From NCBI GenBank assembly GCA_000827325.1, contig KN832870.1, positions 62,001 to 126,000 on the forward strand: a stretch of DNA of 64,000 nt, given 5' to 3'. The stretch's first letter is position 1; the number at the start of each line of letters is the position of its first letter. This document shows, piece by piece, positions 20,068-57,843 of this stretch. The stretch is from Oidiodendron maius Zn (Eukaryota > Ascomycota > Leotiomycetes > Myxotrichaceae). The notes under the pieces are model-generated. The model saw nothing but the letters and a program-made list of their open reading frames with translations. It did no database searches and was not told where the DNA came from. Position numbers and translations under genes: made by a program.

Positions 20068-20252
20068 ATAGCTCGCGCTTATGTCAGTCATTAGTCTCCT
20101 TAACAGTAATATTTAACTCAGTAGGCTAAGAATTGTTTTGGCATATTGAATATATATAAAATGAATGACCTAGAGAACCATAGCCTGCTAGATATAGCAT
20201 ATGGTATACCCTGTCTCCTATAGTGTTAAAAATCCTGAGCGAACTGTAGCCC

Positions 20253-35468: not shown

Positions 35469-35700
35469 GTGCACAGGTTGTAGTCAGGAATCAAGGTGAA
35501 ACTCAGTATTATATTAAGTGATACAGAGACAACTAAAGTAAGAAGAGATTCAGGAGAACTAGAGCCTTTTATGCTCAATACTATGCACTCAATTGAGTCA
35601 CCAAATAGGCTCCTACCTGGTTACCTTATAGGCACCGGTAGGCAGCCGAACAGGCAGATGTATAGTATGTGTAAATGTGCCTGAAGCCCTAGGACCTAGT
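35469..35700 (+). mobile_element. Decayed element copy, family of 36947-37245
   Basis: Begins GTGCACAGGTTGTAGTCAGG and AATCAAGGTGAAACTCAG and stays closely similar to 36947-37165 for about 220 bp (AGAGCCTTTTATGCTCAA, CAATTGAGTCACCAAATAGG). Nearly all differences between the two copies are A/G or C/T. The right terminal repeat is missing here. Confidence 0.7.
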
Positions 35701-36946: not shown

Positions 36947-37245
36947 GTGCACAGGTCGTAGTCAGGAATCAAGGTGAAACTCAGTGTTATATTAAGTGAT
37001 GCAGAGACAACTGAAGTAAGAAGAGATTCAAGAGAACTAGAGCCTTTTATGCTCAACACTATACACTCAATTGAGTCACCAAATAGGCTCCCACTTAGTC
37101 ACCCTATAGGTACCAGTGGGCAGCCTAGTAGGCAGCTGTATCGCATGTGTAGAGATGCTTGAGGCCTTATACCAGTCAACAGTAAATATAACTGAGTTTT
37201 ACTTTAATTCTTAACTATAACCTATATATTACTTAACCTCTACTT
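36947..37245. mobile_element. Inverted-repeat element (MITE-like), RIP-eroded
   Basis: Left end GTGCACAGGTCGTAGTCAGG then AATCAAGGTGAAACTCAG; right end at about 37186-37245, in reverse complement, ends with a related TAAAGTAAAACTCAG. The two ends are therefore terminal inverted repeats of about 40 bp around 200 bp. Single right-end copies occur near 15065-15160 and 58287-58365; the latter keeps the most C/G and looks least eroded. Confidence 0.65.
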
Positions 37246-37835: not shown

Positions 37836-39401
37836 CTAGAACAAGGGTACCAGATCGCGCAGCCTCAAGCCATTAAGGTCGGCGACTCTTATCACAGTTG
37901 TATGTATCCATTGAGCGTGTCTGCTCGCCGGTAGAAAAGCAATATAAGCAATTCTCAGGGAGATCAGTAACGAGAGTCCGGGTCTATTACGATAATCCGA
38001 AAGGTAGTACCCCACGCATTTGCAGATCTCAGCTGCAATAGATTGGATATTATTTAATTCATTAGGTGGACAGAGAGGTCCACGAGCGTTTGCGGGAGGC
38101 AAGTGGAATGCGGATGTGCTGGCGTCGAATGTTGGGCTTATAGCTTTAGCACCGAGCTTGAGGAGAATCATTAGAGCCGTATTGTAGAAAATAAATTCGT
38201 CAGCCCGCTCTAGGCTCGAGAAGTAGAACATGGTTGGAAACAGAGGCTGCTCATCTAGATACTGTTGTACTGGAATCTCGTGGTAGGAATTCGGGTACTC
38301 CTCCTTCCATCGACTTCGCCAAGCATATAACCCGCGAAGGTGGATTAGGATATTCCTCTCGAGTGCCTCATGGGATGATGAAGCTTTCTGTACTCCCTCC
38401 ACTTCGGGATTCCGGATGTTTCTTGCGTCATCCATGAGCCCAGGCAGATCGCACCAAATATCTTGCAAGTGGGACATAGCATTTTTTGATGACGGCTCCA
38501 GAGCCCAAGGAACAGTTTTCCATTTGATTTGTTCCAAGAAGCAGCGCTTCCCTCTGATCCAGCTTTCTAAGATAATGTTGATTCGATTAGCTTCGAAGAT
38601 ATCCTTCTCAGGTTTTGTTTGGTGTCTCTCGGGGCCCCGTAGCTCGATCAGCCTTCCAACCCCCCCAGCATGACTAATCCAGCCATAATTAGAGTCGCTG
38701 GCAATAAACTACATGTTAAATGTTACATATGGTTGACATAGCCCACGGCAGGGAAGATTTCTAGCTCACCTCGTAAACCTCGAGCGTTACGGCACTAGAG
38801 AGGATAGCTAATGAAAAGGCCTTTTCGGAATATTGTAGGTCCTGATTAAGCCGCTTTAAAGCTTTCCTATAGTTCAGAACACCCCGCTTAATCACGGCCT
38901 CTTGCCGATGTTTTCGGCCAAAGTAGGCCGTACTAAGCGCACGCATGCTTAGTTGTGCAACTAAAGATGTCGTGTCTTTAGCATGAATGTGCATCAATGA
39001 CGTTGGCATAACGATGCTGAGAAAAAGAACCGAGAGGAGAAAAGAGACATGGATGTTGTCTTCGAATGCAGACATATCAAGGCTGGAAGGAACAGATGGC
39101 TTTGTTGGCACACCGAGAAATCGAGTGTTGGAATGGCTTGGTGCGATGACAGAGTCAGTGGCCTGACCCTTTTCCGCGTCCCGTATAGTCCGTGAGACTT
39201 CATCAACGAATCGGCGCTCCCGCACATAGCCTTCGCACTCATATCCGATATTTTGACATTTTTCGCATGCTGGACGCCGCTCGTCGCATTTGACCTTCCT
39301 TCGACGGCACGTGTTGCACCCTAGGTTTATCAACCAATTTTATTCTGGTTAGATCTCGCCTCCACATATCGAAACTCACCTTTTGACCTTGTTGCTCCCA
39401 T
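37836..39401 (-). CDS. Zn2Cys6 transcription factor of the 37.8-55.1 kb cluster
   Basis: Three exons, 481 residues: 39401-39380, 39320-38770, 38708-37836; introns 59 and 61 nt. Cys9, 12, 19, 26, 29 and 36 form CX2CX6CX6CX2CX6C ([20 protein letters not shown]); intron 1 falls just before the first Cys, with only seven residues upstream. The body is the fungal_TF_2 (PF11951) type: [51 protein letters not shown], a terminal [19 protein letters not shown]. It is intact. As the only regulator inside the cluster, it is the likely pathway-specific activator. The start codon is preceded by a minimal upstream frame ATG-GAT-TAG that lies in the first of four shared motifs, so translation may be damped. 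The assignment to its neighbours is inference. Confidence 0.88.
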
Positions 39402-39405
39402 TGTT

Positions 39406-39435
39406 CCTAATCCATGGGTAAAAGAGCGAGCCGTG
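39406..39435 (+). promoter_or_regulatory. Shared cluster motif, copy 1
   Basis: CCTAATCCATGGGTAAA followed by AGAGCGAGCCGTG. It begins four bases upstream of the regulator start codon, so on the regulator's strand it lies in the 5' leader. This copy differs from the others in the right half (AGAGCGAGC for AATGCGACC). Confidence 0.6.
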
Positions 39436-39505
39436 CTCTGTAGCTCTATATAGGAAAAAATTTCGGGACCAGGGCTGCAATATGCGACGGACCTTATCCA
39501 CTTTC

Positions 39506-39535
39506 CCTAATCCATGGGTAAATTTGCGACCCGTG
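39506..39535 (+). promoter_or_regulatory. Shared cluster motif, copy 2
   Basis: CCTAATCCATGGGTAAA followed by TTTGCGACCCGTG, about 100 bp further upstream of the regulator, with a TTCC prefix also present in the 53.5 kb copy. Same orientation as copy 1. Confidence 0.62.
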
Positions 39536-40100
39536 TGCGAACCCACCCGCGACCCCGCTTGCAACGCCCGTCCCATGAAGCAGATCATCCGTTCCCTGGC
39601 TCCGACGTCAGTGCAATGCTCTGTGACTGGAACCCTGGAATATGTAATATCTCACATTCTAGGCAGCTGTGAACGCCTCCTGATCCCAAAGTATCGGGAT
39701 AATATAGTCCGGATTATGTGTGATGGCGGTAGGAGATAGTGACAAGGCAAAGTATGCATGGCGTCCTGCGAAGGGTGGCGGCATAGGGAGAACGGATTCG
39801 GCCTAAGTCTAGAAAATCCGCAGATGGGCCCACAAGAGGCACAATGAAGACCATTGGTTGTAGTGTATCTGCAATCTTGGAACTTCTCCACTGGATACAT
39901 GCCGCACCACAGAAGCTCTAATGCAAGGGCATGTTAGGCTGGGATAAAGAAGCACAAGGTGCGAATCTGACAGTGTGCATCTGCGGCCACCTCCTCCACG
40001 GAACCGAAAGGAGCACTCTCTTCGAAAATTTATGACTCGGCGTGCTTCTACACAATACTGGCAACATTCATATACCAATTGATAAATTATTCAGAGCAAC

Positions 40101-41271
40101 ATGAAGGTCGAAGGAGGAACATTTGTCATATCTGGAGGGCATGTGATGAGCATACCCCATGTGAGCAAGAAAGCGATCAGTACTAATATGTATCACACCG
40201 CAGAGCTTCAGGCCTTGGCCGAGCATGTGTAGAGGACATATGTCGCCTTAATGGATATGTAGCTATTCTGGATATTAATGCAGAACTTGCCAGTGAACTA
40301 GTGAAAGACATTGGAGGAGGAAAGGCCAAGTTCTTCGAAGCAAACGTCCTGGAGACGGAGAGCATTTCTGCCGCCATGAAAGCAGCTCTGGCCTGGTCCA
40401 AAGAGACTGGCAAGAAGATTAGAGGAGTGATTACAGCAGCAGGGGTCTCTGCTCCCGCAAAGGCTTGTTGGTTTTATTATGACTTCCTTTTATTCCTCAC
40501 ACCTAGGCGGTATTCTGAAAAGTGGCTCCGAGTTGGAGCCCGATGGGTTGACTTGATAGTGAAAATTGCAAGGCGACATAGTCTGATAGCAGTAGCAGCC
40601 TATTTTGTGTCCATGTGTTATCTCTTTCAACCTTGTAACTGATCGAATATGGATTCTAATAGCTTTTCTACTTGTAGATTCTCGATCGCCATGGAAATCC
40701 CTTCAGCCTTGATGACTTTGACTTTGTTATGAACGTCAATGTCCGAGGAACTGTCGACCTTATACGCCAATGCCTCCCCCACATGGCCAATACCACGCCT
40801 GTTGGAGAAGATGGCGAACGAGGAGTCGTCATTATGGTAGCCTCGGCTGCTGCATTTGATGGCCAGCCTGGCCAGGGTACCTCCCCTCTCTCAGATTTAA
40901 TATCATGCTGATGGACTTTTACAGTGGCATACAGCGCTTCGAAGGGTGCCATTGTGGCTCTAAATCTGCCAATGACAAGAGATCTTGCACGCTATGGAAT
41001 CAGAGTTGTTACCATTGCACCGAGTCTCTTCAATTCAAAGATGGCTCCTATGATGTCTGATAAGGTCCGCACAAGCTTAACTACTGCGATGGAGTTCCCA
41101 GGTCAGGTTGATCATTTCTAGCTTAACAATAATAGTTGCTGATAAGAATCAGTGAGACCTGGACATCCACGTGAGTTTGCACAGCTGGTAATACAGAGCA
41201 TAGAGAATATCATGCTTAATGGTGTGGTGCTTCGACTTGATGGAGGCATGAGAATGCCAGGAAAGATATAA
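40101..41271 (+). CDS. HSD17B10-like short-chain dehydrogenase (3-hydroxyacyl-CoA type)
   Basis: Five exons, 263 residues: 40101-40138, 40204-40462, 40678-40876, 40925-41101, 41153-41271. The nucleotide-binding SGGASGLGRA motif is assembled across intron 1; then [46 protein letters not shown], the YSASK catalytic block, and the end [18 protein letters not shown]. This is the type-2 3-hydroxyacyl-CoA dehydrogenase pattern. Introns 1 and 2 begin with GC (GCATGT and GCTTGT) rather than GT; every nearby GT is out of phase. Intron 2 is long, 215 nt. It would oxidise a 3-hydroxyacyl-CoA or a hydroxy-branched intermediate with NAD. The C-terminal GKI is not a standard peroxisomal signal. Confidence 0.86.
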
Positions 41272-41853
41272 CCTATAAATACAAAATGAATACATGTGAT
41301 GGTTCAAAGTTAAGTTTCTGTCACACTCTGTTAAAGTGTATAAAGGGCCATAGCCGAGAGCGTGCAGAGGCGCAGATGTTGGAAAACTATAGTAGAATAC
41401 CAGCATTCTAAGCTTTGATTAAGTAGAGTGCTAGTTTAACCTCATGTGCCCGGAAGTCCAATCATGGACACTCCAGATATAAAATTTACTGTCATACAGC
41501 CATACAGGAGGTTTGGACTCCTGAATGAAATGAGAATATATAATCTCAACTTGGCACGCGGAATGGATCCCTGATGCTAGGGGACTGGCTTCAAATTATG
41601 GAAGAAATATCACCTTGCTAGTAATCCCGCCGGCCACGCGGATGAATATGTTTGATTGTTGAGGGCCCTCCAGTTCCCCAGGCCATATAAAGTAGTAACT
41701 AGAGCGATTTTGGCAGATAGACTTGTGAGGGAAAGCCTCTGAACCAACGAACTCTCTTTGTTCAAATAGCTGAGCCACATCTATAGTTAACGGCATCCTC
41801 TTAGCAAAATTCCGTGGTACTCTTAGAGTGTACTAGCTTATCGTAGTATAATG
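41272..41853. other. Convergent 3' flanks
   Basis: About 0.6 kb between the ends of the dehydrogenase and the transporter. A minus-strand frame of 66 codons at 41596-41796 shows no domain. No terminator can be defined for a eukaryotic gene by eye. Confidence 0.4.
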
Positions 41854-43751
41854 TCATATAACCGATTTGATATCCACTACAGTCCTCTGCATATTTACCA
41901 TCTCTATCACAGATGCTCTATAACCCTTCCAGTGCCTCTTAGGCACGCCCTCTAAATATATCTCGTTAATCTCTGCTAGGGTACGATTTGATGTCTCGGG
42001 CCTATTGCGTGTTACTGTATGTGTCTTTCGAGACATATTAATTTAGAAACATACAGATAGAAATAAGTTAAAACTGTTGTTACCGCCATACAGCCTGCAA
42101 AGATCAAGAAAGCTTTAGCGCCAAGGTTGCCACTACAAGAAGGTCAGTTGTAAATACAAAGCTGGCGAGGTTAGAGGGAGAGTAACGTACGCGCCGGCGT
42201 TGATTATTTGCGGTATAGCAAAAGTCATGATAATGGCTGTGGTGTATGCCCAAAAGGCTGACCATGTCATGGTGGCCTCTCTAAGGCGTGAGGTAGGAAT
42301 CTCTGTGGGTAGGACGTAGCACCTAGGGCACATTTTAGCCTGCCATCCAGGACGAATTTTCTCAGTAGATATACTGACATGGATTGAAACCCAACAGCAT
42401 AGACAAAAGAGAAGACGATACACAACGACGCAAGTGCATCTGTCTCTTGTCTTGTGCGCAATCCTCCGCAGGCCAAGCCCCCAGCGGCGGTGTCGATGAG
42501 GAAGAGAGCAACGCATCCACCAAGCGCGATAGGGCGTCGTCCGATCCTATCCAAACAAAAGGGACCAACGATGGTACCAAGGAAGTTGATGACAAATAAA
42601 ATAACGGTGATTCTGAAAGGATCACTAACTCCGCTCTGCACGAGAAGAACAGTTGAATAGGTCGCAGTAAGTATTTGGCCACTGGCCTCGCCCAGACAGA
42701 GTCCAGCCCCAGATACCAACGTACGCTCTAGCTGCGACTTACGCAAGATCTCCCACCACTTGATATTGGCAGGGCCAGACAATTGTTGTACCTGGGCTCT
42801 CTGAGCTATAAATATTTCCGTCTCGACTAGCGCAATATCGTTGGTGCGGAGGGATGCAAGGACTATTCGGGCTTCATCCACCCGGCCTTTACTCAGCAGC
42901 CACATTGGACTCTCTGAAAGGACCAATGACAGGAGGAAGAAGGACCCGGGAGCTGCAGCTTGGATCGCCAATAGAATGATATATTGCCTCTTGTCGGGAA
43001 TCTTTTCAGTGCCCCACACTATAACAGTTGCGACAACACCAGTGAGTGAAGCAGTTGCGACAGTAAAGCCCACGGCGCGGGCACGGAAATGTGCTGGGAC
43101 GATATCGGCAAGATAGAGCGGGGCAACGTTTGTGACGAGGCTTATGCCGACGTCTGCTCGAGGTCAGGACGGGAGGAGATGGGATTTGAAATTAGGAAGG
43201 CTTACAGTTCCAAAACCTTCCAACCACCATCGCCGCAATACCAGGAGCAAAGACTTGAAGGAGTGAACCAGGGAAAGAACACAAGCCGTATGCAGCAAGC
43301 ATGGTCATCTTGCGGCCGAACTTGTGCTGTATAGCGTTGGCAGCAAACGACCCTATAGCAGCACCGGCGAGAGGAATGCAGGTTAAGAGATTCAGGCTAC
43401 CAGCCTGGAGTTTTGTCAACTTGTGAAACCTACATCGGCACATCAAGGCCATACCGTGAAGACAGGGAGGCCTCCAACTCCAGGGCCTTGGTATGTCTCA
43501 ACAAAGAGGGGTAGTGAAGCGAGAGGTGCAACAAGAGCGTTATCATAGCCATACAAGGCCAATGATAAGCTTATTATCAGAACTGTTCGCGTATATTAGT
43601 AAATTTGTATTCTAGATTGCTGTCAAGCAAGAAAACGGGCCATACGGTTCATAACCACTCGCCAGTTCATCCATCTCCTCTTTTCAAGAGACTGGGACTC
43701 GGCTATTGTGATTGCTTCCACGTGGGTGGAAATCCCCTGTGTTTCGCCCAT
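41854..43751 (-). CDS. MFS sugar/carboxylate transporter
   Basis: Seven exons, 528 residues: 43751-43646, 43582-43455, 43404-43206, 43153-42375, 42339-42191, 42132-42055, 42001-41854. Sugar-porter features include LALYGYDNALVAPLASLP, AGAAIGSFAANAIQHKFGRK, PESxMWLLSKGR-like SPMWLLSKGRVDEAR, LDRIGRRPIALGG, LPTEIPTSRLREATMTW, AKAFLIFAGCMAVTTV and LAEINEIYLEGVPKRHWKGY. Twelve spans are expected at the plasma membrane. The family takes hexoses, maltose, quinate or lactose-like substrates; which one is not clear. The 35-nt intron between exons 4 and 5 is shorter than usual, so that junction is provisional. Within this catabolic cluster its likely job is importing the pathway substrate. Confidence 0.87.
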
Positions 43752-44273
43752 CCTGCCAATGATGCCTGAAGAACTTTTGTAGATGCCTGTGCAAGGGAGA
43801 GAATAAGAAGCTTCCAGCCGGATCGTGGAGATGGGATCTTATAAGATGTAATGTCAACTAATTTAAAACATTCGAAATCTGGGATTGAGGACATCTATAC
43901 AAACATCTGTATATTTATCACCTTGATTAGGCCATGATACCCGGATTGACTTCGACGTACCCCGCATTCCAACCCCGTGGGGTTATGCACCTTTCAATAA
44001 GCAACATCCAGGCGAAGTATACTCTAGATCCTAATTGGGTTTACGTCCAAACGGGCGATTGAGCTTCTGTAAGGTTTGCAGCAAAGACGGTGACAGGGAT
44101 TCAAAGCGATGAGGTAGTGGGAATATCACATATTGACAAAGGTCTACTAGCCGCAATCTCAGATTTAGCTGGGCTCATAAAACATTCAGAGCTTATTTAG
44201 TTGGTGTTCGTGAGACGCACGTACTAGTCTATATTGGAAGTAGCTCGCTCTACCATCGCGGACCCCTCTCTGA
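43752..44273. other. Intergenic region upstream of the transporter
   Basis: About 0.5 kb with no gene; likely promoter of the transporter. It contains ACCCCGCATTCCAACC and CCCCGTGGGG near 43970, GC-rich boxes of the kind bound by zinc-cluster regulators, but no copy of the shared cluster motif. Confidence 0.4.
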
Positions 44274-44963
44274 TTGGACCATCAGTATACTCAAAATGGA
44301 GTGGCCCACATACGGACGTATCGAAAAGCAGTGTGGAAAGTGGTCACGTATTTGCTACTTTGGCCAGGGCAAGGCAAATATTGGATGACCAGGCTACCTA
44401 CCCGTAGGCGATGCCTTGTTTGCAGCCACGGTGGCATGCTGACCCAGTCTGCAATACAGGTTCATCTCAGGCAGTATCAGTCGAATCCCCTTCGAACTAA
44501 GATGGTGACTACTGGCACCCTATACGCACTGCAAGAGATGCTCACATTGTGGATTACAAAGGACTACAATAAGCATGGCCACTACTTCACCTCTCGGGTC
44601 CCGAAGATGGCTGCGTATGGAACTTTCATTAACGCACCTTTGGGACACTTCTTGAATTGCATCCTTCAAAAGGTAATCTCCGATCGAACGAGCCTGAAAG
44701 CCAAGATCATCCGGATTCTTGCCTGCTATAAAGATCAGTTGGGTCGTCTCGGCTGTCACTCTTGCCTTCGCGCAGAATTTCCCTTCCCGAGCAGGCATGG
44801 ATTCCCATTATCCAAGATTGTCGCTTTCGGCATTAGAACATACATCGGTTCGGTAGCAAAGAGGAAGCGTATTGCAGGCCTGAGGAGGGGATTGAAGAAA
44901 GTGAATAGAGGAGACAGAGTTAACTACCAAGATGCACCTAATAACTGCGAGATCGGAAATTGA
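44274..44963 (+). pseudogene. Mpv17/PMP22-like membrane protein, internally deleted
   Basis: A peroxisomal/mitochondrial Mpv17-type protein is recognisable in one frame: LTQSAIQVHLRQYQSNPLRT, then LYALQEMLTLWITKDYNKHG, VPKMAAYGTFINAPLGHFL, LQKVISDRTSLKAKIIRIL, and, after a gap, IVAFGIRTYIGSVAKRKRIA. Between them about 60-70 residues that should hold two membrane spans are missing, and a remnant (WVVSAVTLAFAQNFP) is in a different frame. The 5' part before about 44440 is not family-like. It is most likely dead, although the frame is open. Mpv17 relatives sit in peroxisomal or mitochondrial membranes, which suits the neighbouring genes. Confidence 0.7.
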
Positions 44964-45141
44964 GAGTTCGCAATACCGCAGTGCTATTGAGTCACGTGTT
45001 ACCACTCATTCAATAACGCCATCATAATGGCTTCCATTGGATGTAAAAGTCAGCCACCTGCACATAAAGAAATCAAACCCTATTATCCTTCAATACTTGC
45101 CCAAATCAATTCAACATCCACTTCGTAGCGTCGGCTCCACC

Positions 45142-47513
45142 CTATAGCTTACTCTCCAGGTCTACCAACTCCTCTAACTTCGCAAACTTGTAATAGAAAT
45201 CCAAACTCTCTGGGTTCAACAATGTCCCACTCGGCGTTATAATCTTTCCACTTACAATCTGCTTCACTGGCAACTCTACTTTCTTCAAATTGACCGTTGT
45301 CTGTTGCCACCATCAATTAACGTTACGATCGTCCCATCCCATTCCCTAACATCAAATTGCGGAAGAGAGTGTCGACAATACAAGTCCAGGGAGCTATGAG
45401 AATGGAGGGGTAACTTACAGGTATCGCCGGCGTCTCAAAAATATGCTTCGGCACATGCCTGGGGCTGAGTTCACTTCGTATGGCAGCTTTGACGTCGGTT
45501 ACCAGCTTCGTGGTGAATTTCCCACCCGGCTTCATCATCAAGAATAGCAGCACACTCTCATCGGCATCTTGTGGTCTGCGCTGCCCAACACAAATCGAGT
45601 CTGCAAGCATAGGAAACCTAGTCTCCAGTACACCATAAATCTCGGCAGATCCAAACCTGACCCCTGAGGGGTTAAGAACTCCATCTGCCCTACCCAGGAA
45701 AATGAGGTTCTTGGTTATAGGATGGATCATAACGAAATCACCGTGCGTCCATACATTTTCGTACTTCTCAAAATAAGATTGAAAGTACTTTGAGGTTCCA
45801 GAAGGAGGGTGGGCTGAATCCCCCCAGAAATAGACAGGCATGTTGGGGAACGCGGCTGGTGCGACAAGCTCGCCTGGTGTGCCATCCTCGACCGGCGCGC
45901 CGCGGACGCCAGGACCACCTTCAATGAGAGAATCGTAGATGGCGACAGGGGTGCCGAGACTTGGACCTTGTGTACCACCAACATACACTGGCGTAAGAGG
46001 ATTATCTAGTCCAAAACAGCCCGCCTCGATGATATATTAGTTCGAGCTACCCATCCAAGGATGATTAGACTTACTAAGTCTGTTCCGCCAGAGATATTGG
46101 CCAAGTGCACATGTTTAGGGAACCCCACATCATAAAACCACTTAAACAGCTGATCAGAGAGCACCATGCCAGTACTAGTAACGACTTTCAGATTCGACAG
46201 ATCGGTGACGTCTTTTGGCCTGACACCATTCTTCTGCATCTCCCACATCCACCGCGGACTAATTCCTAGCTTCGTAACCTTCTGCTTGCCGGCTAACTTC
46301 ACGAAGGTCTCCAAATCCGGTTGGAATGGAGAGCCATCGTATAGCACCACTCTTGCACCCGGAAGCATCTGCATGACGGAACTAAAGTACATCATCCATC
46401 CAGTTGTTGTATATTGTAGAGACACACAATCCTCATTTTGGTCTCGGTGAAGTCTCCCCTCTTTTGCAGAGGAGAGCATAGCGCCTCCGATCGAGTGCAC
46501 AATGCATTTTGGTGACCCGGTCGTGCCAGATGAGTAGGCTATTAAGAACGGGTCGTGGAATGCCATCCGCTCGAAGTCAGGGGTGTCCGACGTAGCCTTT
46601 TGGAGGTACGAGGCGAGGGTTTGCGTATGTGGGACTCCGCTAATATCAACTGGCTGTTTGAACCGTGGCATCGATATCATCCCTGCAAATTCGTGGACGT
46701 TTTTCATCCCGTTGACGATATCTGTCATTTTTGGTCGAAGGTCGAATCGTTTGCCGTTGTATATTGCGAAGTCATCCATGAAGATGTACTGTCAGGTCAG
46801 TCTCCAACAACCCGCGGAGCCAGGAGGCACAGGCATACCTTAGGCGTGACCTGTAAAACCCTCTGCAGCACACCTTGAACTCCCATATCCGTCGAACTGC
46901 TGCTAAACATCCCACCCAAAGTCGTAACCGCTAGGAAAACCTTTAGCGTATCCACGGAATTGCTCGCCACCACCACCACCCTATCTCCCCTCCCTACGCC
47001 GTGCTCCTTCATCGCACTTGCCAACTGTGCAACTTGCCTTCTTAGTTGCCCCCAACTTACATCTCGAATTTCGGTAGCTCCTTCCCTCACCTCTGTTAGT
47101 GCTATCTTATCATCCTCCTTCCCAATCGTTCCTCTGTGTGCTGTTGGTGAACCAGCGGCTCTCTTGTATAGAAGGTTTTCAGCGAAATTCATGAAAACGC
47201 CGTCAAACCAACGGGGGATAAAGTCTATACGTGCGTTTTCGTCGACCACTTTCGCGTAGGAGCCGGAGTAGATCAGCCCGACGTATTGGAAGCATTGATC
47301 CCAGAATTCCGTGCGCTTGGTAATCGAGTACTGATACAAATCCCAGAATGACTGTTATTTTCAGGTGTCAGCGAGGAAGATGTTAGGGGAGGTGCCACAT
47401 ACCTTGATTTGGAGATTGTGCTTCTCGTTGACATTTTGCATGAACTTGTACATCTCTGTACTAGTGGGATCAGGATGTTCCCAGAGTTTTCTCGGGGCTA
47501 TGTGAGAGTCCAT
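45142..47513 (-). CDS. Acetoacetyl-CoA synthetase-like acyl-CoA ligase, peroxisomal (PTS1)
   Basis: Five exons, 700 residues: 47513-47403, 47351-46839, 46788-46075, 46024-45419, 45300-45142. The N-terminal PRKLWEHPDPTSTEMYKFMQ is AACS-typical, the AMP-binding motif is AYSSGTTGSPKCIVHSIGG, and later LANISGGTDLAGCFG, LTPVYVGGTQGPSLG, LIFLGRADGVLNPSG and KKVELPVKQIVSGK define adenylation and C-terminal domains. It makes an acyl-CoA from a free beta-keto or related acid with ATP. The last three residues are SKL, a canonical peroxisomal import signal; it was not listed in the family members I know. It is divergent from the thiolase at 47867, and the two share a 350-bp promoter. One acceptor (CATCGAG) is needed to keep the AGCFG block in frame. 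Confidence 0.92.
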
Positions 47514-47851
47514 ATTCGAATTGAGCCCGGCGAATTTCAAAGGTACAGTGAATTAAGTTGAAGATTCTGTGTGCAAGACGGAAGGGAGGGAAGAAATGTG
47601 CAGCTTATTATAGCGGCAGAAGGTATCATTCGGTCCAATGAGAGGAATGCGGGGAGATGATTGTTGGCTTAGTTCAAGGCTCTCGGCATGTTAATAACCT
47701 CGGCTTATTACTTTCACTGAGTCTCTCTAAGTGGTATATTTAGGAGTATGTGCAGTGTTACGACCCAAGCATATTTCCCCTATAATTCGTGTTACTCATC
47801 TTTACATTACCCCGTACCAAAATTACCCCATACCAAACTTCACTGTATTCC
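47514..47851. promoter_or_regulatory. Divergent ligase/thiolase promoter
   Basis: Short region between the two divergent starts. It shows a near-duplicate ATTACCCCGTACCAAA and ATTACCCCATACCAAA at about 47806-47836. No copy of the CCATGG-centred cluster motif is seen here. The arrangement favours joint regulation of activation and thiolysis. Confidence 0.5.
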
Positions 47852-47866
47852 ATGCACACCATAGAG

Positions 47867-49308
47867 ATGGTCCGAAGTAACGAGCCATGCTACGTCCTTG
47901 GTGTGGGCATGACTAAGTTCATCAAGCCCCGTGGCAAGATCGACTATACTGAGCTCGGCTTCGAGGCAGGCATCAAAGCTATGCTCGATGCTCAGATTAA
48001 CTACGATGAAGTTGATCAAGGCGTGGCTTGCTACTGCTACGGCGATAGCACCTGCGGCCAGCGCGTGTTCTACCAGTTCGGCATGACCCAGATCCCCATC
48101 TACAATGTGAACAACAACTGCTCAACTGGAGGCACCGGCCTTTATATGGCACGAAGCCTTATCTCTCATGGGGCTGCGGACTGCATCCTCGTGGTGGGTT
48201 TTGAGAAGATGATGCCGGGTAGCCTGCGGAATTTTTGGGATGATAGATCGCAGCCAACTGGCACTATGGTAGATATGATGGCTGAGACCCGGGGCCTCAC
48301 CAACGCACCTCGCGCAGCCCAGATGTTTGGCAACGCCGGACGAGAGTATATGGAGAAGTATGTTTTCCTCCTATTTTTGTTTAGCCACCAATATATTCTG
48401 CACATCAAATGCTAACCATCTACAGGTATGGCGCCAAGGCTGAAGATTTCGCTGAGATTGCTCGCGTGAACCACGAGCACTCGCAACGAAACCCTTACGC
48501 CCAATTCAAGGACGTCTACACCCTTGAACAGATCTTGAAAGCTCCTATGATCCATGAGCCACTCACCAAGCTTCAGTGCTGCCCCACGTCCGATGGTGGA
48601 GCTGCAGCTGTTCTGGTTTCCAAATCGTTCTTGGACGCTCGCCCCCAGCTGAAGGGGCAGGCCATTCTTATTGCTGGACAATGCCTTGCCACTGATGCAC
48701 CAAGTATCTTCTCCAGGTCTGCTATCGATCTAGTGGGCTTCGAGATGACCAAATTCGCTGCTCAAGCAGCCATGAAGGAAGCCGGTGTGACTCCTGATAA
48801 TGTGCGGGTATGCGAGCTTCACGACTGTTTTTCTGCAAACGAGATCATCGTCATTGATGCTCTCGGTCTCTCCAAGGCCGGTGAGGCCCACAAGCTTGTC
48901 CGAAATGGCGACATCACCTACGGCGGAAAGCTAGTCATCAACCCCTCCGGAGGCCTCATTTCTAAGGGCCACCCTCTTGGTGCCAGCGGTATTGCTCAGT
49001 GCGCTGAGCTTGTCTGGCATCTCAGAGGTTGGGCTAACAACCGCCTTATTGAGGACACTAAGGTGGCGCTGCAACATAACCTTGGACTTGGTGGTGCTGT
49101 AGTTGTTACTGTATACAAGCGTGCCGATGGGCATACGAACACGGCTGTGGATAGCGACACGGTTGGAATGATTAATGGACTGGGTTACAACCCGGCCGTG
49201 GAAGCAAGGGGCTTTACAGAAAAGCAGGCAACGAGTGTGCGGAGCAGAACAAAAACCTCTGCTTGGGCGCTAGGTGATACAGAAAAGAAGGTCGAGTCGA
49301 GATTCTGA
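47867..49308 (+). CDS. SCPx-type thiolase (lipid-transfer thiolase)
   Basis: Two exons, 457 residues: 47867-48357 and 48426-49308; a start at 47852 would add five residues. The nucleophile Cys85 lies in NVNNNCSTGGTG, the second motif is CELHDCFSANE, and GGLISKGHPLGASGIAQC carries the C-terminal catalytic His. These match the SCP-2/3-oxoacyl-CoA thiolase group rather than classical Fox3-type thiolases. No SCP-2 lipid-binding domain follows. The enzyme would cleave a 3-oxoacyl-CoA, including branched ones, with CoA. The C-terminus is ESRF; SRF is a marginal PTS1-like end, so peroxisomal location is possible but not firm. It is divergent from the SKL-tagged ligase. Confidence 0.92.
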
Positions 49309-49824
49309 ACCCGTGTACCTTGCCCACAGCCAAGGATTTGCGTATACATTCCCTGTTAGTTCCTAAAATCATAGCTCGCTCATACCTTCATTGCATAAAA
49401 TTTGTGCTTACATTAGTGCGAGAGGGATGCCCCGTAAATGATACCGTATAAGCTATCCGATAAGACATCCTGTCCATAGTTCAGGACGAGTACAGCAATA
49501 GATTAACTCTTCAACAAATCATCGATTGACAAATTTGCCTTGCATCTACACTTGAAACCAATAATAGCCTGCACGCAGAGATGACTCTGGCGTTGAAACG
49601 AGTTGGTGCAAAGGCAGTGGCGTTATGCCTAATCCATGGGTAAAAATGCGACCCGTGCCTCGGGAAGGGGTTGCAGGAACAGGGCCGGGACTGGAGATAG
49701 TCGGACATACAAATAGAGGGTAATCTTGGAACGGAACGCAAAATGTCGCTTCAGAGGCACTTCTCTACCTGTACTCTCTCCGTGTCTCCCTTCACTTGAA
49801 ATTAACTGGTCGTTTGCCTACACT
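49309..49824. other. Intergenic region containing shared motif copy 3
   Basis: The space between thiolase end and esterase start. Its notable content is the shared motif at 49628-49657, 168 bp upstream of the esterase start. A longer esterase frame starting at 49726 is possible but its N-terminal extension has no family support. Confidence 0.5.
49628..49657 (+). promoter_or_regulatory. Shared cluster motif, copy 3
   Basis: CCTAATCCATGGGTAAA followed by AATGCGACCCGTG. This full-length copy lies upstream of the esterase gene and matches the 53.5 kb copy over its first 26 bases. Confidence 0.65.
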
Positions 49825-51051
49825 ATGGCCGATGATATCGAGACTAGCTTCGAGGCCGCTATTGACGCTGGCCAGATTAACGGTGCCATTATCTGTACCA
49901 CCGATGCTGAGGGTCGCTTCATTTATAACAAGGCGCTCGGCGAGCGCATCCTAGTGTCAGGCGAGAAGCGGCCACAGCAGCTGGATGACGTGTTGTACCT
50001 GGCCTCAGCCACCAAGCTGATCACCACTATCGCCGCTCTGCAGTGCGTTGAAGACGGTATACTGACACTGACGGACGACCTGTCGCCTGTCGCCCCCGAG
50101 CTCTCTGGCAAGCAAGTTATCACTGGCTTTTCTGACGACGGCGAAACCCCTTTGCTCGAGTCGCCAACCCGCCCTATTACGCTCGAGATGCTGCTCACGC
50201 ACAGCTCTGGCGTTAGTTATGACTTCTTAAACCCGCTCATCGCCCAGTGGTGCAAGAAGTTTGGCCCCCCACAGCAAGAGGGTAAGCGACGGCCAGTCGA
50301 GGTAGCCTTCAGCTACCCGCTTGGCTTCCAACCCGGCGAAGGCTGGATGTACGGCCCTGGGCTTGACTGGGCCGGCCGCATAGTAGAGAAGGTGACGGGA
50401 CTGACGCTGGGCGAGCGCATGCAGCAGCGCATCTTCGACCCGCTTGGAATCACTGACGCCCAGTTCTTCCCTGTTACACGCGAAGACCTCCGTGCCCGCC
50501 TCGTTGATCACAACCCGCAAGACCCTGATGCCCTTGGGCACGCCGTGCTAGGCGGCAATGCCGATATGAACAAGCGTATTGAGGGTCACTTTGGCGGCCA
50601 TAGCCTATTTATGCCGGGCACTGGCTATATCAAAGTCCTGCACTCACTGCTGGCCAATGACCAGAAACTGCTCAAACCAGACACTGTCGACGATATGTTC
50701 CAGAACCACCTCAACCTCCAATCGACCGCAGGGCACCAGGCAGCGCTGGCAAGCGCTGCAGGTGTTTTCTTCCGCGTGGGCACCGCACCTGAAACACAGG
50801 CCGGCCATGGTCTTGGCGGACTACTGACTCTGGAGGACGTCGATGGCTGGTACGGCGAGCGTACACTTACCTGGGGCGGCGGCATGACTTTTACCTGGTT
50901 CATTGATCGCAAGAACAACCTCTGCGGCGTCTGCGCCGTTCAGGCAGCGCTGCCGTTTGACGGCGACGCAGTGGCCGCACTGAAGCAGACTTTCCGCCGT
51001 AACATCTATCACAAATACGCCACATGGAGGGGCCAGCAGCAACTGTCATGA
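49825..51051 (+). CDS. Serine beta-lactamase-fold esterase/transesterase (LovD/EstB-like)
   Basis: Intronless, 408 residues. The class C beta-lactamase/DD-peptidase fold is shown by SATK at 61-64 (nucleophile Ser61, general base Lys64), the second motif Tyr176 in WMYGPGLDWAG, and the TWGGG stretch near 352-356 in place of KTG. LEMLLTHSSGVSYDF and LTLGERMQQRIFDPLGI are family-typical. Fungal members act as esterases, lactonases or acyltransferases (LovD), not as antibiotic resistance factors. Here it probably opens an ester or lactone before CoA activation. It is more GC-rich than the surrounding spaces and has no intron in a cluster where the other intact genes are spliced. The start is the ATG before ADDIETSF; an upstream in-frame ATG exists at 49726. 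Confidence 0.9.
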   Translation: MADDIETSFEAAIDAGQINGAIICTTDAEGRFIYNKALGERILVSGEKRPQQLDDVLYLASATKLITTIAALQCVEDGILTLTDDLSPVAPELSGKQVITGFSDDGETPLLESPTRPITLEMLLTHSSGVSYDFLNPLIAQWCKKFGPPQQEGKRRPVEVAFSYPLGFQPGEGWMYGPGLDWAGRIVEKVTGLTLGERMQQRIFDPLGITDAQFFPVTREDLRARLVDHNPQDPDALGHAVLGGNADMNKRIEGHFGGHSLFMPGTGYIKVLHSLLANDQKLLKPDTVDDMFQNHLNLQSTAGHQAALASAAGVFFRVGTAPETQAGHGLGGLLTLEDVDGWYGERTLTWGGGMTFTWFIDRKNNLCGVCAVQAALPFDGDAVAALKQTFRRNIYHKYATWRGQQQLS

Positions 51052-52157
51052 TGATGAAATGGAAGAGTACAAATCACTTCCGTCAGCTCGTTCGTTCAGA
51101 TATTTGTCCATCGGAATATAGAAATATGTGCCTCTCCCTCTAATGCGAAGCCCACAGTTCAGTGCCTCGGTCCAATGATGATGGTGACGCGTGTTGTTCA
51201 CTCATTCAGCCCGCTTCCAATACCTAAATACCATTTCTACTATGCTGGAATTTGACATTTTCCCTCTCCATTTGCTGCTCGAAGTTTCTGGTAGTAGAGT
51301 CGAGCATAGGCACGAGATTGACGCAGCCACTGCCTGCGTAGCGTACTCTCCCTAATATTATGGTTTGGGCCTGTGACGGCTGATACATCTTCGTAGTATA
51401 TTCTTCCTGGTTAGGTCTTAAATGTAAAAGCACCTAGAGCCTGCCAAATAGGCCACTGTCTGCGCAACGTCGAGCAACTAATTACGGCAATTTTTACTGG
51501 TGGTTAGAACATGGAGTGTGGGCTTTGAAGGACGACTCTCCACCATGTTCAGCTGGTACTCAAGCGCGTTAATGAGATACAATGGCACTTCAAGAGTGAA
51601 GGAGGAAGTGCAGGGTCTGTTAGAAGTCAATAGACCAACGCTAGGGGTTGATCAGGACCGAAAAGGCCGTCTGGCTTTGAGATTCGTCAGCAATCGATAC
51701 AGAGATGGCTGGGTTTATTGCAAAGGCGGACTAGATAACAGAGAAAGCCTTAGAGTTGACAGTTGTAGAGGTATGAAGTGGAAATTACAGAACACGAAAG
51801 GGCCAGGGAGACCTTTCTCCGCGCAAGGCGTGTTACTAAATGTAATTGTTTCGTAAAGCACTACTACCCCAACGAGTTAAATTGTTTGAGAATATAGCGA
51901 GATGTGATGAGATCAAGGAAGATCCGGGGCATCTTATTTACAATACAAAGTTATGCTCCTGTGCATAGAACTCCAAGACATCATGACCATGAACTATCTA
52001 TCTGTTCTGCTCGATACTCAGGGCACGCTTGCTGAAACAGAGACCATAGAACGCCAGACACTTGAGTATCTCGGAACAGGTTCTCGGTAATACAGACCTG
52101 TCGACACTCACAACCTAGGCATCCTCGCTATATACATGCTTGTCGAGTCGGCTGGCT
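51052..52157. other. Intergenic region
   Basis: About 1.1 kb. A plus-strand frame of 118 codons at 51500-51856 and a 69-codon minus frame at 51224-51433 have no recognisable domain. No repeats stand out. It separates esterase and SDR, whose 3' ends converge here. Confidence 0.45.
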
Positions 52158-53212
52158 TCAAATTGCCTGACCCATAACGCTTAGTTCCTTGACCGTATCT
52201 AGCTCGCCTAGGAGGTCCACAAACTTCGACCTTGCTAATTTCCAGGCCACTACACCCAAGGGGAGCCGAAGTGGGATGCACTCGCCTCGGCTGGCAATGG
52301 TGAATATCGTCCCAGCTACAGCAGAAGGTTCGATGACGACACTGGACCCGGTGGCCTTATTTACAAAGGTTTCGAGTTTCCGAGAAGGCATGTCATCAGC
52401 TGCATAGGCCGGATGCGGCTTAGTGTGGACTTTGCTCTGACCCTCGAAGTTAGTATTGACACCACTAGGCTCTACTATGCAGAAGTTGACTGTTTACGCA
52501 AACAGAGAATTAGCCACAACTGTTTCCTTAGTGGACTTAAGATCAACTGATAGCAGAAAGGTGAGAAGAGGACACTTACTGTTCCAGTCTGGGTGCATCT
52601 CCCTTGCTACAGACTCGGTAAAGCCTTCAACCGCAAATTTGCCAGCGTGGTAGTAGGCGTGGCCGGGAAACCCGCACAGCCCAGCCAGTGACGAGATGTT
52701 GAAAACTAACCCCCCTCGATGGTCTTTAGCCTGACGCATGACCTCAATGGCGTGTACCGTGACTCGTGCAGTGCCAAAAAATAGCGTCTCCATCTCTTCA
52801 TGTATTTCTTCCTCTGTTGCGGCCTCGGTGTCGCCCGAGAGGGAGTAGCCGGCGTTATTGACCACGACATCGAGACAGAAGTCCTTACCAAAATGCTTCG
52901 CTCCGGCGGCGAATGCAGCGTCGACAGAACCGACCGAGGCCACATCTATGGCGAGCTTAAGGATGTTCGGGTTCGTATTAGGGAGGTAAGAGAGACTGGA
53001 AGGGTTGCGAGCTGTTGCAATGAGGCGCTGGTTTGGCTTGCTCGCAACCAAGCTGGCAATCTCGCGACCGATGCCCGACGAGCAGCCGGTAACTTTGCGG
53101 CGTAAGAGACTTAGTTTTTTGTCTGATGTCAACTCGAAAACACGAAGGGAAACTCACTCAACCACACCGCATCGGGTGGTAGTTCGTATGGTTTTGTGTT
53201 GACAGGATTCAT
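52158..53212 (-). CDS. Classical short-chain dehydrogenase/reductase
   Basis: Three exons, 299 residues: 53212-53158, 53092-52580, 52489-52158; introns 65 and 90 nt. The cofactor motif ITGCSSGIGRE is formed across intron 1. Then LKLAIDVAS (acidic binding residue), VVNNAGYSLSG, VFNISSLAGLCGFPG and the YYHAGKFA active site (YxxxK). The substrate-loop EPSGVNTNFEGQ follows intron 2. The N-terminal RLIATARN, with Arg after the second strand, points to NADP preference. Members oxidise or reduce ketone/alcohol groups on hydrophobic substrates. No peroxisomal tail (ends GQAI). It runs divergently from the dienoyl-CoA reductase-like SDR; the motif copy at 53531 lies between them. Confidence 0.9.
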
Positions 53213-54007
53213 CTTGACAAAGAATCGCGCGTTCAAATGGCTCTTGAACACTAGCAAGCGTGTTGCCACTGTTGTAGCTGGGATCAAGACAATCAATGTG
53301 TGTCAAGTATCAGTGGCTTATTTACCGTGGACAAGTCGGCAGTCATATTATTTTGCTGTCTGCCTCCTCATTTTGTGAATAAAGTATGCATGCTGCTACG
53401 TCACAATCGCGTTCCACGCTATGAGGAAATATCCCTCTCTGTTGGGCCGCTCATTTAACCAATTTTGCGCATTTGAAATAACTTATCGGCGTCACCTGGT
53501 CCATCCTTTCCCACAGTCATTATTGAGTATGGTCGCATTTTTACCCATGGATTAGGGAAGGTGTAGCGCCGTGTAGCGCGGATCAATATCGGGGGTTGGC
53601 GACCCTGCCACCACACCTAGGCTACAGGTGATCTTCTACCCACTTTCAAGATCCGACATTGAGCTATCGGGCTTGGCTGATAGAGGCCGACGAAAGGCTT
53701 AATTCCTCCTTCACAATGCAAGGTGTAATATGAGACCGCCTGCCTTATGCCTGCCTGACCTCGATATCTAGAGCCTCGGCAACCGGCTAGCTCATTAAAC
53801 CCCTCTCGGTTCTGGCGTTGCACTTTATGACCCAAGAGATATCTCTTTTCCTATAAAAGGCCATATTTGTAGATGTTCATTCTGCTTTAGCATGCCCTGA
53901 TTACAAAATTAAGCTTAGCCCCTATCTTTTATTGTACTTCTCCCGGCCCAATATATATCCAACCTTTCATATCTCAATTGCGAACGAGCGTCACGAAACG
54001 CTACACC
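53213..54007. promoter_or_regulatory. Divergent promoter of two SDR genes
   Basis: About 0.8 kb between divergent SDR starts. It contains shared motif copy 4 and a TATA-like AATATATATCC near 53949, about 60 bp upstream of the plus-strand gene. Otherwise nothing recognisable. Confidence 0.5.
53531..53557 (-). promoter_or_regulatory. Shared cluster motif, copy 4
   Basis: On the minus strand CCCTAATCCATGGGTAAA followed by AATGCGACC; the CCGTG end is absent. It is 319 bp upstream of the minus-strand SDR and about 450 bp upstream of the plus-strand SDR. Confidence 0.62.
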
Positions 54008-55064
54008 ATGGCCTTCTCTAGTTCCGAATACCTGTCCAGTGTGTGGAAAGATGGTATTTTTGGTAAAATAATCAGGCCTTCTGTTTTATATTTTGTAGCT
54101 AATCCCGAATGTCTAGATAACAAGGTCGTCTTCTGCACCGGTGGCGCTGGATCCATCTGCAGCGTTCAGGTACGGGCTCTAGTTCATCTTGGAGCCAATG
54201 CGTGTATTGTTGGGAGGAATGTAGAGAAGACGGAAAGAATGGCTCAGGGCATTGCTACGGCGCGCAAAGGGGCGAAGGTCCTCGGCATTGGAGCTGTTGA
54301 TGTCAGGAAGTATGATAGTCTGGAGAGAGCCGTGGACAGATGCGTGAAGGAATTGGGAGCCATCGACTTTGTAATGTGAGTATTATTCAGTCTTCGGGAA
54401 TGAGGAATTGGGTGTTGGAAATATGCCAGCCACTAAGAGATATTATAGTGCTGGCGCAGCCGGAAACTTTCTTGCTCCTATCTCCCGCCTTTCCTCCAAT
54501 GCCTTCAGAGCGATTGTGGAGATCGATACTATAGGTTCTTACAATACTCTTAAAGCTACGCTCCCACATATAATCGCATCCGCAGCCAGGAATCCCAACA
54601 CGGGCACAAATGCGTCTACCGGTGGAAGAATCATTTTCCTGTCCGCTGCCTTCCATTACACAGGAGCACCTCTACAGGCACATGCTGCAGCTGCCAAGGC
54701 TGGTATCGATGCACTCTCAGCCACTGCTTCCATTGAATTCGGTCCGCGAGGCGTTACATCCAATGTCATCACCCCGGGCCCAATTGCAGACACAGAGGGC
54801 ATGGACAGACTCGGAAGCAAAGACAAAGAAAGTGCCGCTGCAGCCCTTAAGCGTGTTCCTCTGCAGAGACACGGAACAGTAAAGGAGATTGCCGATGGGA
54901 CAATTTATCTCTTCAGTGACGCTGGAAGCTATGTTAATGGCGAAGTTCTGGTCATTGATGGTGCGAGATGGCGATCACCAATGCCTATTGGCGGCCTAGA
55001 CTACCCTGCTGGTTTACTGGACGATGCGGTCCTGCTCGGTGGTAAGAAGATATCAAAGTTATAA
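54008..55064 (+). CDS. Peroxisomal 2,4-dienoyl-CoA reductase-like SDR (PTS1)
   Basis: Three exons, 309 residues: 54008-54062, 54117-54375, 54449-55064; introns 54 and 73 nt. The N-terminus YLSSVWKDGIF matches yeast Sps19-type reductases; FCTGGAGSICSVQVRALVHL is the NADP-binding region, IGAVDVRKYDSLE, IAGAAGNFLAPISRLS, GGRIIFLSAAFHYTG and a substrate-binding HGTVKEIADGTIYLFSDAGS block follow. It would reduce 2,4-dienoyl-CoA to 3-enoyl-CoA with NADPH, needed to degrade polyunsaturated chains. The protein ends ISKL, so it carries a canonical peroxisomal targeting signal. Relative to family members the usual TGGNGTI has become TGGAGSI. It is the right-most gene of the cluster. Confidence 0.93.
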
Positions 55065-56207: not shown

Positions 56208-57843
56208 ATGCTATTCTCAAGGCCCTTGGTTTTTGTTTCTCTCTTGACAACGGCGCCAGCGCAGTTCAACCTTTCGACTGCTGTCTCCGAACTTCCCGCT
56301 TGCGCAGTGAGCCCCTCTGTATCTCCACTCAAACTCTGCTAAGAAAGAACTTCAAGATATCATGTTCTCAGCAAGAACTTCTTGTTGCACGCTGTGCTTT
56401 CGAGGATATACCAAACTGTCTTTGCACCAATGTCACTTTACAGGCACAGATCTCGGGTTGTGTACTCACGGCATGTAATCAAACTGAGCAATTCAGTAAG
56501 TAGAGGCATGCACTCGGTATCTTCTATCTTTGCTAAGAGTGTCTAGTTGCGACAACTATCACACAAGCGACCTTGTGCAAAGGTGTCCCACAGCCATCTC
56601 GCAGTGCAGAGATAATTCGGGTGGTTATCGTCATATCCGCAGTTACTTTTCCAATCTTTATCTTGAGGCTCTTCTCTCGGTACATTGTTTCAGGGTTCTG
56701 GTGGGATGATTGGGCAATAATAGCATCTGGCGTTAGTAATATGCCGAGAGTTGGGATACAAAACCCAAACTGACTTACCATTAGACACTTGTGATTCCGT
56801 TGGCCGTTATTCCGGTATATAGTACGCACCAGTCTCAACCAATTCGCGCTAAGAATGAATATTAATAGCTATCAGGTGCCACAAGAGGTTTTGGAAAGCA
56901 CGCATGGGACGTTCCACCACAGAACATTTCCTCTCTAGCAAAGGTAAGCGATCTAGGAGAGTAGTATAAAAGCATTCTAATGGTAAATAGCTCTATTATG
57001 TATCTCAAATCCTTTATCTCCTTGTCCTGCATATGACGAAGGCTTCAATCCTCCTCTTATTCTTACGCATTTTCCCGGACAGGCATTTTCGCCTTGTCAC
57101 CAAGATATGCTTAGGGTGGCTGGTCTCCCTCACCGCTGCATTCACAATTGCTATTGCTCTTCAGTGCGTCCCTGCGTCTGTAATTTGGGATACAAACGTC
57201 AAGGGCAGATGTATCAACTCGATGGTCCTGATATACGCCGCTGCTGCATTTAGCATATTCGAAGACATTGTAATTATTCTGCTCCCAGTTCGAGAGTTGA
57301 GGAATCTAAATCTTCGCTCGGGGAAGAAGTTTTCTGTTATATTTGTGTTTGTTTTCGGCTCCTTGTATGTTGTTTCACTCTTTAGTTTATTTTTCAAGTT
57401 GTTGACCTAAGCAGCGCCTGCGTAACAAGTATAGTCCGTCTGACATACATAAATGATTATTCATTCCAATCGCTCGACACAACATGTACATATTTTGCTC
57501 TAGATTCTAAACACTTCTGAATCTAATAAGCTATATAATAGGGAGTGGCACAGATGTGCTGATCTGGTCGTTCCTCGAAATCTATACTGCCATGATTTGC
57601 GGCTGCTTGATGACGATCCGACCGCTACTAACCTTACTATTCCAGAGCACCAGAAATGGTACAGAGATCAATTTCCGGTCCCATATAACGGATTCGAAAT
57701 CTGCAGGAGCTCATTGGAACCGTGTTCATAGTTCGGTGATCGAGCTTCAAAGCACGGGAAGCACAAAGATGTCGACCGATGCTGAGCGTGTACATCACGA
57801 GATGTATGGCCAAATTGGAGGACTGGAAATCTGGGTGGCCTAG
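56208..57843 (+). CDS. CFEM-domain Pth11-like G-protein-coupled receptor
   Basis: Eight exons, 420 residues: 56208-56306, 56372-56495, 56547-56731, 56785-56814, 56869-56943, 56991-57364, 57412-57485, 57542-57843; phases close exactly. The N-terminus MLFSRPLVFVSLLTTAPAQF is a signal peptide, then a CFEM domain (ELPACAQ, CAFEDIPNCLCT, QISGCVLTAC) and a fungal rhodopsin-like seven-span domain: VVIVISAVTFPIFILRLFSR, GFWWDDWAIIASG, VSQILYLLVLHMTKASILLL, TAAFTIAIALQCVPASVIWD, SIFEDIVIILLPVREL and LIWSFLEIYTAMICGCLMTI. The WxxDD motif after the first span is a Pth11 hallmark. It should sense surface or nutrient cues at the plasma membrane. Half of the coding sequence lies in short exons. The gene looks intact. 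Confidence 0.88.

Follow-up and report, generated by a model that had tools for sequence, protein, structure and literature searches.

A candidate regulated gene cluster of Oidiodendron maius for splitting an ester and shortening the released acid partly in peroxisomes

The type II 3-hydroxyacyl-CoA dehydrogenase HSD17B10 serves the breakdown of isoleucine. Peroxisomal branched-chain beta-oxidation involves SCPx and DECR2, and human SCPx cleaves branched-chain fatty acyl-CoAs (PMC8919083). In Alternaria, the AK-toxin genes AKT1, AKT2 and AKT3 encode three enzymes localised to peroxisomes, namely a carboxyl-activating enzyme, a hydrolase and an enoyl-CoA hydratase, and the regulator gene AKTR lies in the same cluster (PMC9134587). 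A group of eight genes in the ascomycete Oidiodendron maius Zn codes for a Zn2Cys6 regulator, an HSD17B10-like 3-hydroxyacyl-CoA dehydrogenase (HSD), an MFS transporter, an acyl-CoA ligase, a thiolase, a serine esterase, a short-chain dehydrogenase/reductase (SDR) and a 2,4-dienoyl-CoA reductase type enzyme. It lies in a 64-kb stretch of contig KN832870.1 (C1:62001-126000 of a 45.9-Mb genome in 58 contigs), hereafter the window, and coordinates are those of the window unless a contig is given. A promoter element confined to the group and the predicted enzyme classes lead to the reading, with a probability of roughly 0.6, that these genes form a regulated catabolic cluster in which an ester is split and the released acid is shortened partly in peroxisomes.

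Isoleucine breakdown and peroxisomal branched-chain beta-oxidation (SCPx, DECR2) use the same enzyme classes in successive steps, but the genes of the O. maius cluster are grouped, duplicated and placed beside one regulator. The AK-toxin set resembles the cluster in bringing together an activating enzyme, a hydrolase, a beta-oxidation-type enzyme and a regulator, with peroxisomal tripeptides, whereas it also has a polyketide synthase, an HMG-CoA synthase and a P450 and makes a toxin (PMC9134587); none of these is found among the eight genes. Within the open-access literature, which was covered in part, the AK-toxin genes are the nearest peroxisomal set found and no described cluster has this content, in keeping with an earlier annotation of the same DNA made from its letters alone (the first-pass annotation). 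The cluster itself belongs to a known kind, the regulated fungal metabolic gene clusters.

The cluster has five promoter regions (regulator/HSD, MFS, ligase/thiolase, esterase and SDR/reductase), and a shared-word search has shown that three of these, regulator/HSD, esterase and SDR/reductase, have the 18-base word CCTAATCCATGGGTAAAA in common. The window contains three exact copies and one copy with a single mismatch, compared with 0.04 expected at up to three mismatches, and none of 100 shuffled windows has four matches. Tandem arrays aside, no other 16-mer or 18-mer reaches three copies in the 64-kb window. Genome-wide, there are three exact copies of the word, all within the cluster, and none of the reversed control. 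When up to three mismatches are allowed, the genome has 20 sites (three exact, one with one mismatch, none with two and 16 with three), and the reversed pattern, its sites not split by mismatch number, has 30; the 16 three-mismatch sites fall within the range of this control. The four cluster copies thus stand alone in the genome. Copies 2 and 4 are 91% alike over 33 bases, GCGA follows all four copies at a constant spacing, and the flanks have diverged while 17-18 core bases have been kept. The core CCATGG is palindromic and the arms are partly symmetric, as would be expected of a site bound by a dimer. The element suggests that most of the cluster genes are switched on jointly, and the cluster's own regulator may be the protein that binds it. 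The earlier claim of one regulated unit is supported for five genes, which share a cis-element limited to the cluster in three of the five promoter regions, and does not extend to the promoters of the MFS gene and the ligase/thiolase pair, which lack it. One DNA tag before five of the eight genes makes co-regulation, the target of the regulator and the borders of the cluster directly testable.

Other promoter motifs were rejected. Only one of 48 CGG-type Zn2Cys6 dyads reaches three of the five promoters, with a shuffle frequency of 0.027. CCTCGG, a fatty-acid-regulator motif, has one site in each of three of the five promoters, which is not significant given its density of 0.44 per kb across the window. 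Gapped trinucleotide dyads found in all five promoters number 142, compared with 80-96 in 10 shuffled sets, but no single motif was found behind the excess and it was not used. As a separate observation, element copy 1 (39406-39423, minus) holds ATGGATTAG in the orientation of the regulator, a two-codon upstream reading frame before the start codon.

The enzyme classes named by the first-pass annotation agree with family and solved-structure comparisons, with refinements for the thiolase and the esterase. The ligase scores 571.7 bits against the acetoacetate-CoA ligase model TIGR01217 and passes its curated cut-off of 520.9; its best match is the subfamily model NF002937 (603.9 bits, below a cut-off of 639 set for prokaryotes) and its nearest solved relative is the acetoacetate-CoA ligase 4wd1. 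By family, it is predicted to be an acetoacetate-CoA ligase. The thiolase exceeds the cut-off of PRK08256 (561.9 bits over 436) and matches the solved SCP2-thiolase (type-1) 6hrv with an expectation value (E) of 4e-138. The Pfam domains of the whole protein are thiolase and ketoacyl-synthase-like, and no SCP2 domain appears at E up to 1. Since Pfam finds no such domain, the enzyme is taken as SCP2-type rather than full SCPx. Most matches of the HSD in the PDB are 3-hydroxyacyl-CoA dehydrogenases, including type II; the best is 4pn3, the human-type 1u7t gives an E of 7e-49, and YSASK (YxxxK) is present in the alignment. These features place the predicted enzyme in the HSD17B10, or type II, class, as had been proposed. 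The best solved relative of the reductase is 4fc6, a peroxisomal 2,4-dienoyl-CoA reductase (E 1e-41). No NCBIfam model among its best 25 matches exceeds its cut-off, neither PRK07576, the best one, for an unnamed SDR subfamily (227 against 321), nor the 2,4-dienoyl-CoA reductase model PRK07677 (164.3 bits, under 318). The closest solved relative together with a C-terminal peroxisomal targeting signal type 1 assigns the putative reductase to the peroxisomal 2,4-dienoyl-CoA reductase type. The assignment of the SDR is generic in both NCBIfam and PDB comparisons. The main exon of the MFS gene matches Sugar_tr (126 bits), the transporter scores 208 bits with TIGR00879, below its cut-off of 237.8, and its PDB matches are sugar transporters. 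The regulator has a Zn_clus domain (38.9 bits) and a weak Fungal_trans_2 match (21.4 bits against a cut-off of 21).

The esterase belongs to the beta-lactamase family PF00144 and has an SxxK motif with the serine at residue 61. Its closest PDB match is the 'Pc15g00720 protein' (6kjc/6kje; E 3e-193), with which 282 of 401 aligned columns are identical (70%) and the SxxK motif is shared. This protein is presumably PcEST, the lovastatin hydrolase of Penicillium. Further PDB matches are the 'Transesterase' 4lcl (E 8e-72) and the carboxylesterase 1ci8 (E 2e-15), which we take to be LovD and EstB, respectively. In place of the description as LovD/EstB-like, the enzyme is far closer to Pc15g00720, and its motif and close identity qualify it as a predicted PcEST-type esterase. 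The cluster offers a setting for finding the natural role of lovastatin-hydrolase-type esterases.

The spliced models of both the ligase (LESKL) and the reductase (ISKL) end in SKL, as the first-pass annotation stated. The thiolase and its paralogue both have an ESRF end. SKF is a working peroxisomal signal in yeast catalase, and SRF is therefore plausible as a peroxisomal signal of the thiolase. The HSD ends in PGKI and its paralogue on contig C12 in PSKM; the parent form looks peroxisomal, and the location of the cluster form is uncertain.

In the proposed catabolic scheme, the transporter would import an ester that is probably made by another organism as a natural product, and the PcEST-type esterase would remove its acyl part. 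The acetoacetate-ligase-type enzyme would convert the acid to its CoA ester, the reductase would remove one double bond if the chain has conjugated ones, the HSD would oxidise the 3-hydroxyacyl-CoA to the 3-oxo form, and the SCP2-type thiolase would cleave the latter. The ligase and the reductase would act in peroxisomes and the thiolase probably too, and the regulator would control its own gene and those for the HSD, the esterase, the SDR and the reductase through the shared 26-33-bp element. As the first-pass annotation pointed out, an acyl-CoA oxidase and an enoyl-CoA hydratase are missing from the eight genes by their family assignments, and no match to either was found in the 21 open frames, a subset of all frames, scanned by Pfam elsewhere in the window; other genes would supply the oxidation and hydration steps. 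Since SCPx cleaves branched acyl-CoAs and the breakdown of isoleucine uses HSD17B10, the acyl part is best guessed to be a short acid that carries a 2-methyl branch or an oxygen at position 3. The earlier suggestion that a lactone is opened found no support. The gene families, the C-terminal ends, the element with its positions and the paralogues are observed, and we infer the substrate, the order of steps, the compartment, the joint expression and the binder of the element.

The thiolase was used to find 18 bacterial loci, several on short contigs, and their gene neighbourhoods were compared at a match threshold of E 1e-8. In three of them (L047, L055 and L063), an HSD17B10-like gene with 41-42% identity to the cluster HSD lies at most about 1.3 kb upstream of the thiolase gene. 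Its place is beside or one gene away from the thiolase gene in Neptunomonas L047 and in L063, a Desulfobacterium metagenome-assembled genome: the order is HSD10-like gene, acyl-CoA dehydrogenase and thiolase in L047, where genes for an AMP-ligase and for an AraC regulator stand on the opposite strand, and acyl-CoA dehydrogenase, HSD10-like gene and thiolase in L063. In L055, a gene stands between the two. Unlike the O. maius cluster, these neighbourhoods carry an acyl-CoA dehydrogenase, the AMP-ligase of L047 does not match the cluster ligase at the threshold, and the bacterial thiolases are at most 51% identical to the cluster thiolase, with 56% for one partial match and only 32% in L063. In four further loci (L049, L050, L051 and L054), the SDR matches reach only 25-27%, and in the other 11 there is no HSD match. 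No bacterial copy of the cluster is present among the 18 loci, and the pairing supports successive steps for the HSD and the thiolase, and no more.

Several observations weigh against the catabolic scheme. The MFS promoter reaches at best 13 of 18 bases of the element, a score also reached elsewhere in the window, and the ligase/thiolase gap at best 10 of 18; because these promoters lack the element, position alone links the MFS, ligase and thiolase genes to the unit. SKL also ends the ligase paralogue (C9) and both reductase paralogues read (C4 and C14), and the tails thus appear to be old family features that are not special to the cluster. The HSD (GKI), the esterase (QLS) and the SDR (QAI) have no standard peroxisomal signal. 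Acetoacetate is the substrate of the acetoacetate-CoA ligase family, and the acid activated by the cluster ligase may therefore be very short. The eight genes include neither oxidase nor hydratase. In the bacterial sample, 15 of the 18 loci have no HSD relative of at least 41% identity, and none of the 18 matches the cluster ligase, esterase, MFS transporter, SDR or regulator at E 1e-8.

A different view is that the cluster is biosynthetic, or the tailoring part of a biosynthetic pathway, in which the enzymes trim or make the chain of a secondary metabolite. The peroxisomal activating enzyme, hydrolase and hydratase encoded by AKT1-3, with their regulator, set a precedent (PMC9134587), and the genome is rich in ketoacyl synthases, with at least 98 exon-wise matches. 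However, among the best candidates scored, no ketoacyl-synthase match lies between the start of the contig and C1:400,877; the cluster ends at C1:117,064, and about 284 kb separate it from the nearest such match on the contig. Likewise, none of the 14 scored among 120 AMP-binding candidates is nearer than C1:480 kb. The backbone synthase that marks a secondary-metabolite cluster is not found nearby, and a biosynthetic role appears unlikely.

It is likewise rather improbable that two units are interleaved, with the regulator, HSD, esterase, SDR and reductase genes forming a regulon of the element and an unrelated ligase/thiolase pair and the MFS gene standing in between. Such an arrangement would account for the MFS and ligase/thiolase promoters without the element and for the 338-bp gap that the ligase and thiolase genes have to themselves. 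The HSD and the SCP2-type thiolase, however, catalyse consecutive reactions and have neighbouring genes in 3 of the 18 bacterial loci, and the regulon encloses the ligase/thiolase pair instead of flanking it. A more specific proposal is the dedicated breakdown of statin-like polyketide esters, the fungus's own or those of competitors, in which the esterase would free 2-methylbutyrate, the other enzymes would act on the branched acid by oxidation and on the hydroxylated side chain by shortening, and the reductase would handle double bonds after water loss; it is very unlikely, and if true, the lovastatin-hydrolase family would have a natural role in it. That the genes came together by chance close to a chromosome end, without a common function and with the element as a repeat remnant, is hardly credible: the distance of the cluster from the start of the contig is about 100-117 kb, the first 6 kb of this contig are AT-rich, and repeats occur just to the left of the cluster, but the genome has no further element copy at up to two mismatches, the element flanks diverged while 17-18 core bases stayed, and all four copies are in gaps before genes.

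A search of the eight proteins against their own genome, with identities taken by aligned blocks, has revealed close paralogues of five enzymes, about 70-91% identical in main blocks and located on different contigs (Table 1), whereas the regulator, the MFS transporter and the SDR have remoter relatives only, the best block by score of the SDR being 46%. Because the close paralogues of the five enzymes lie on other contigs, the cluster appears to have been put together from duplicated copies of genes dispersed in the genome, and the pathway seems to have arisen as such copies of peroxisomal genes were brought together around the esterase. The surroundings of the paralogues are ordinary: the thiolase paralogue is flanked by genes for an mRNA capping enzyme and a Memo-family protein, the ligase paralogue is near the gene of a TPR protein that matches an anaphase-promoting-complex domain, and the HSD paralogue is near a Ras-family gene. 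Bacterial transfer of the thiolase gene is unsupported: the paralogue in the same genome shares 87-89% identity with the cluster thiolase, and the closest bacterial relatives found reach 51%, or 56% in one partial match. The ratio of nonsynonymous to synonymous substitution rates (dN/dS) between cluster gene and paralogue, calculated after removal of columns of low local identity and averaging the constraint over both copies rather than the cluster copy alone, is 0.055-0.146 in six of seven pairs, which are under purifying selection; in the ligase pair, the synonymous sites are saturated and the ratio is not computable.

At C17:716.6 kb, the gene of the closest esterase paralogue and a Sugar_tr-family MFS gene are arranged head to head, and the product of the latter is 37-39% identical to the cluster MFS transporter. 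Duplication as a block was rejected for this pair: the esterases are 80% alike, the MFS proteins only 37-39%, and the closest MFS paralogue is elsewhere (C16:968 kb). The MFS-esterase pair is thus taken as a repeated association. The pair (C17:712-718 kb) is near a gene for a cytochrome-b2-like FMN dehydrogenase. A tblastn search with the eight proteins found no second cluster in 18 stretches (13 + 5), in which only the esterase-MFS pair has two members of the set; reductase relatives at C8:1284, C8:1854 and C4:600 kb, the regulator relative at C16:57 kb, the MFS relative at C16:968 kb and remoter esterase relatives lie outside these stretches. L044 has a short regulator-like match over 30 zinc-domain residues, and L031 has another of 21% identity.

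Gene models were built from three-frame translations with introns picked by eye, the coding sequences then being scripted, so that exon borders are predictions. Each of the eight genes gives a single open frame after splicing, and the eight intact genes in about 17 kb (37836-55064) reported earlier are upheld. Two of the four HSD introns (40139-40203 and 40463-40677) must be GC-AG. The C12 paralogue has introns with GT donors at matching positions, which supports this reading, and the GC donors may lower splicing of the HSD gene. Comparison with the paralogue suggests an alternative thiolase start at 47867. The gap between the divergent ligase and thiolase genes is likely a two-way promoter.

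Table 1. Genes and element copies of the O. maius cluster, and the nearest paralogues in the same genome
Feature	Position	Strand	Description
REG, Zn2Cys6 regulator	37836..39401	-	481 amino acids (aa), 3 exons; gene model
Element copy 1	39406..39431	+	18-base copy 4 bp before regulator start codon
Element copy 2	39506..39531	+	regulator/HSD gap, 104 bp before regulator start codon; 1 mismatch in 18-base core
HSD, HSD17B10-like (type II) 3-hydroxyacyl-CoA dehydrogenase	40101..41271	+	263 aa, 5 exons, ends PGKI
MFS, sugar-porter-like transporter	41854..43751	-	521 aa, 7 exons; gene model
AACS, acetoacetate-CoA ligase type	45142..47513	-	700 aa, 5 exons, ends LESKL
Ligase/thiolase gap, divergent genes	47514..47851		338 bp, without shared-element copy
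THI, SCP2-thiolase type 1	47852..49308	+	462 aa, 2 exons, ends ESRF
Element copy 3	49628..49653	+	179 bp before esterase start codon
EST, predicted PcEST-type serine esterase (beta-lactamase family)	49825..51051	+	408 aa, intronless
SDR, short-chain dehydrogenase/reductase	52158..53212	-	299 aa, 3 exons; gene model
Element copy 4	53531..53556	-	SDR/reductase gap; 26/26 bases identical to copy 3
DECR, peroxisomal 2,4-dienoyl-CoA reductase type (Sps19/DECR2-like)	54008..55064	+	315 aa, 3 exons, ends ISKL
Ligase paralogue	C9:610 kb		72-76% in two long blocks (71-74% in second comparison); short end blocks 59-80%
Thiolase paralogue	C3:494 kb		87-89%
HSD paralogue	C12:1335 kb		80-91% by blocks
Reductase paralogues	C4:2117 kb; C14:829 kb		79-80%; 72-74%
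Esterase paralogues	C17:717 kb; C11:1288 kb		80%; 76%
Regulator, nearest paralogue	C16:57 kb		47-59% by blocks
MFS, closest paralogue	C16:968 kb		54% in main block

The first 10 kb of the contig contain no tandem TTAGGG or CCCTAA. Left of the cluster, two direct repeats of 223 bp in AT-rich DNA (35469-35691 and 36947-37169), 88% alike and 1,478 bp apart from start to start, look like a small decayed repeat-flanked element. Farther left, genes for an amidohydrolase, a dioxygenase-fold protein with weak HpaD similarity and a fumarylacetoacetate-hydrolase-family protein are grouped at 15320-20861, perhaps as a second catabolic group for aromatic compounds. Long inverted repeats surround the fumarylacetoacetate-hydrolase gene, one of 86 nucleotides (20383-20468/22188-22273; 93%) and one of 57 nucleotides (20033-20089/22275-22331; 88%). 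On the right, the cluster is adjoined by a fungal rhodopsin-domain gene at 56991-57843.

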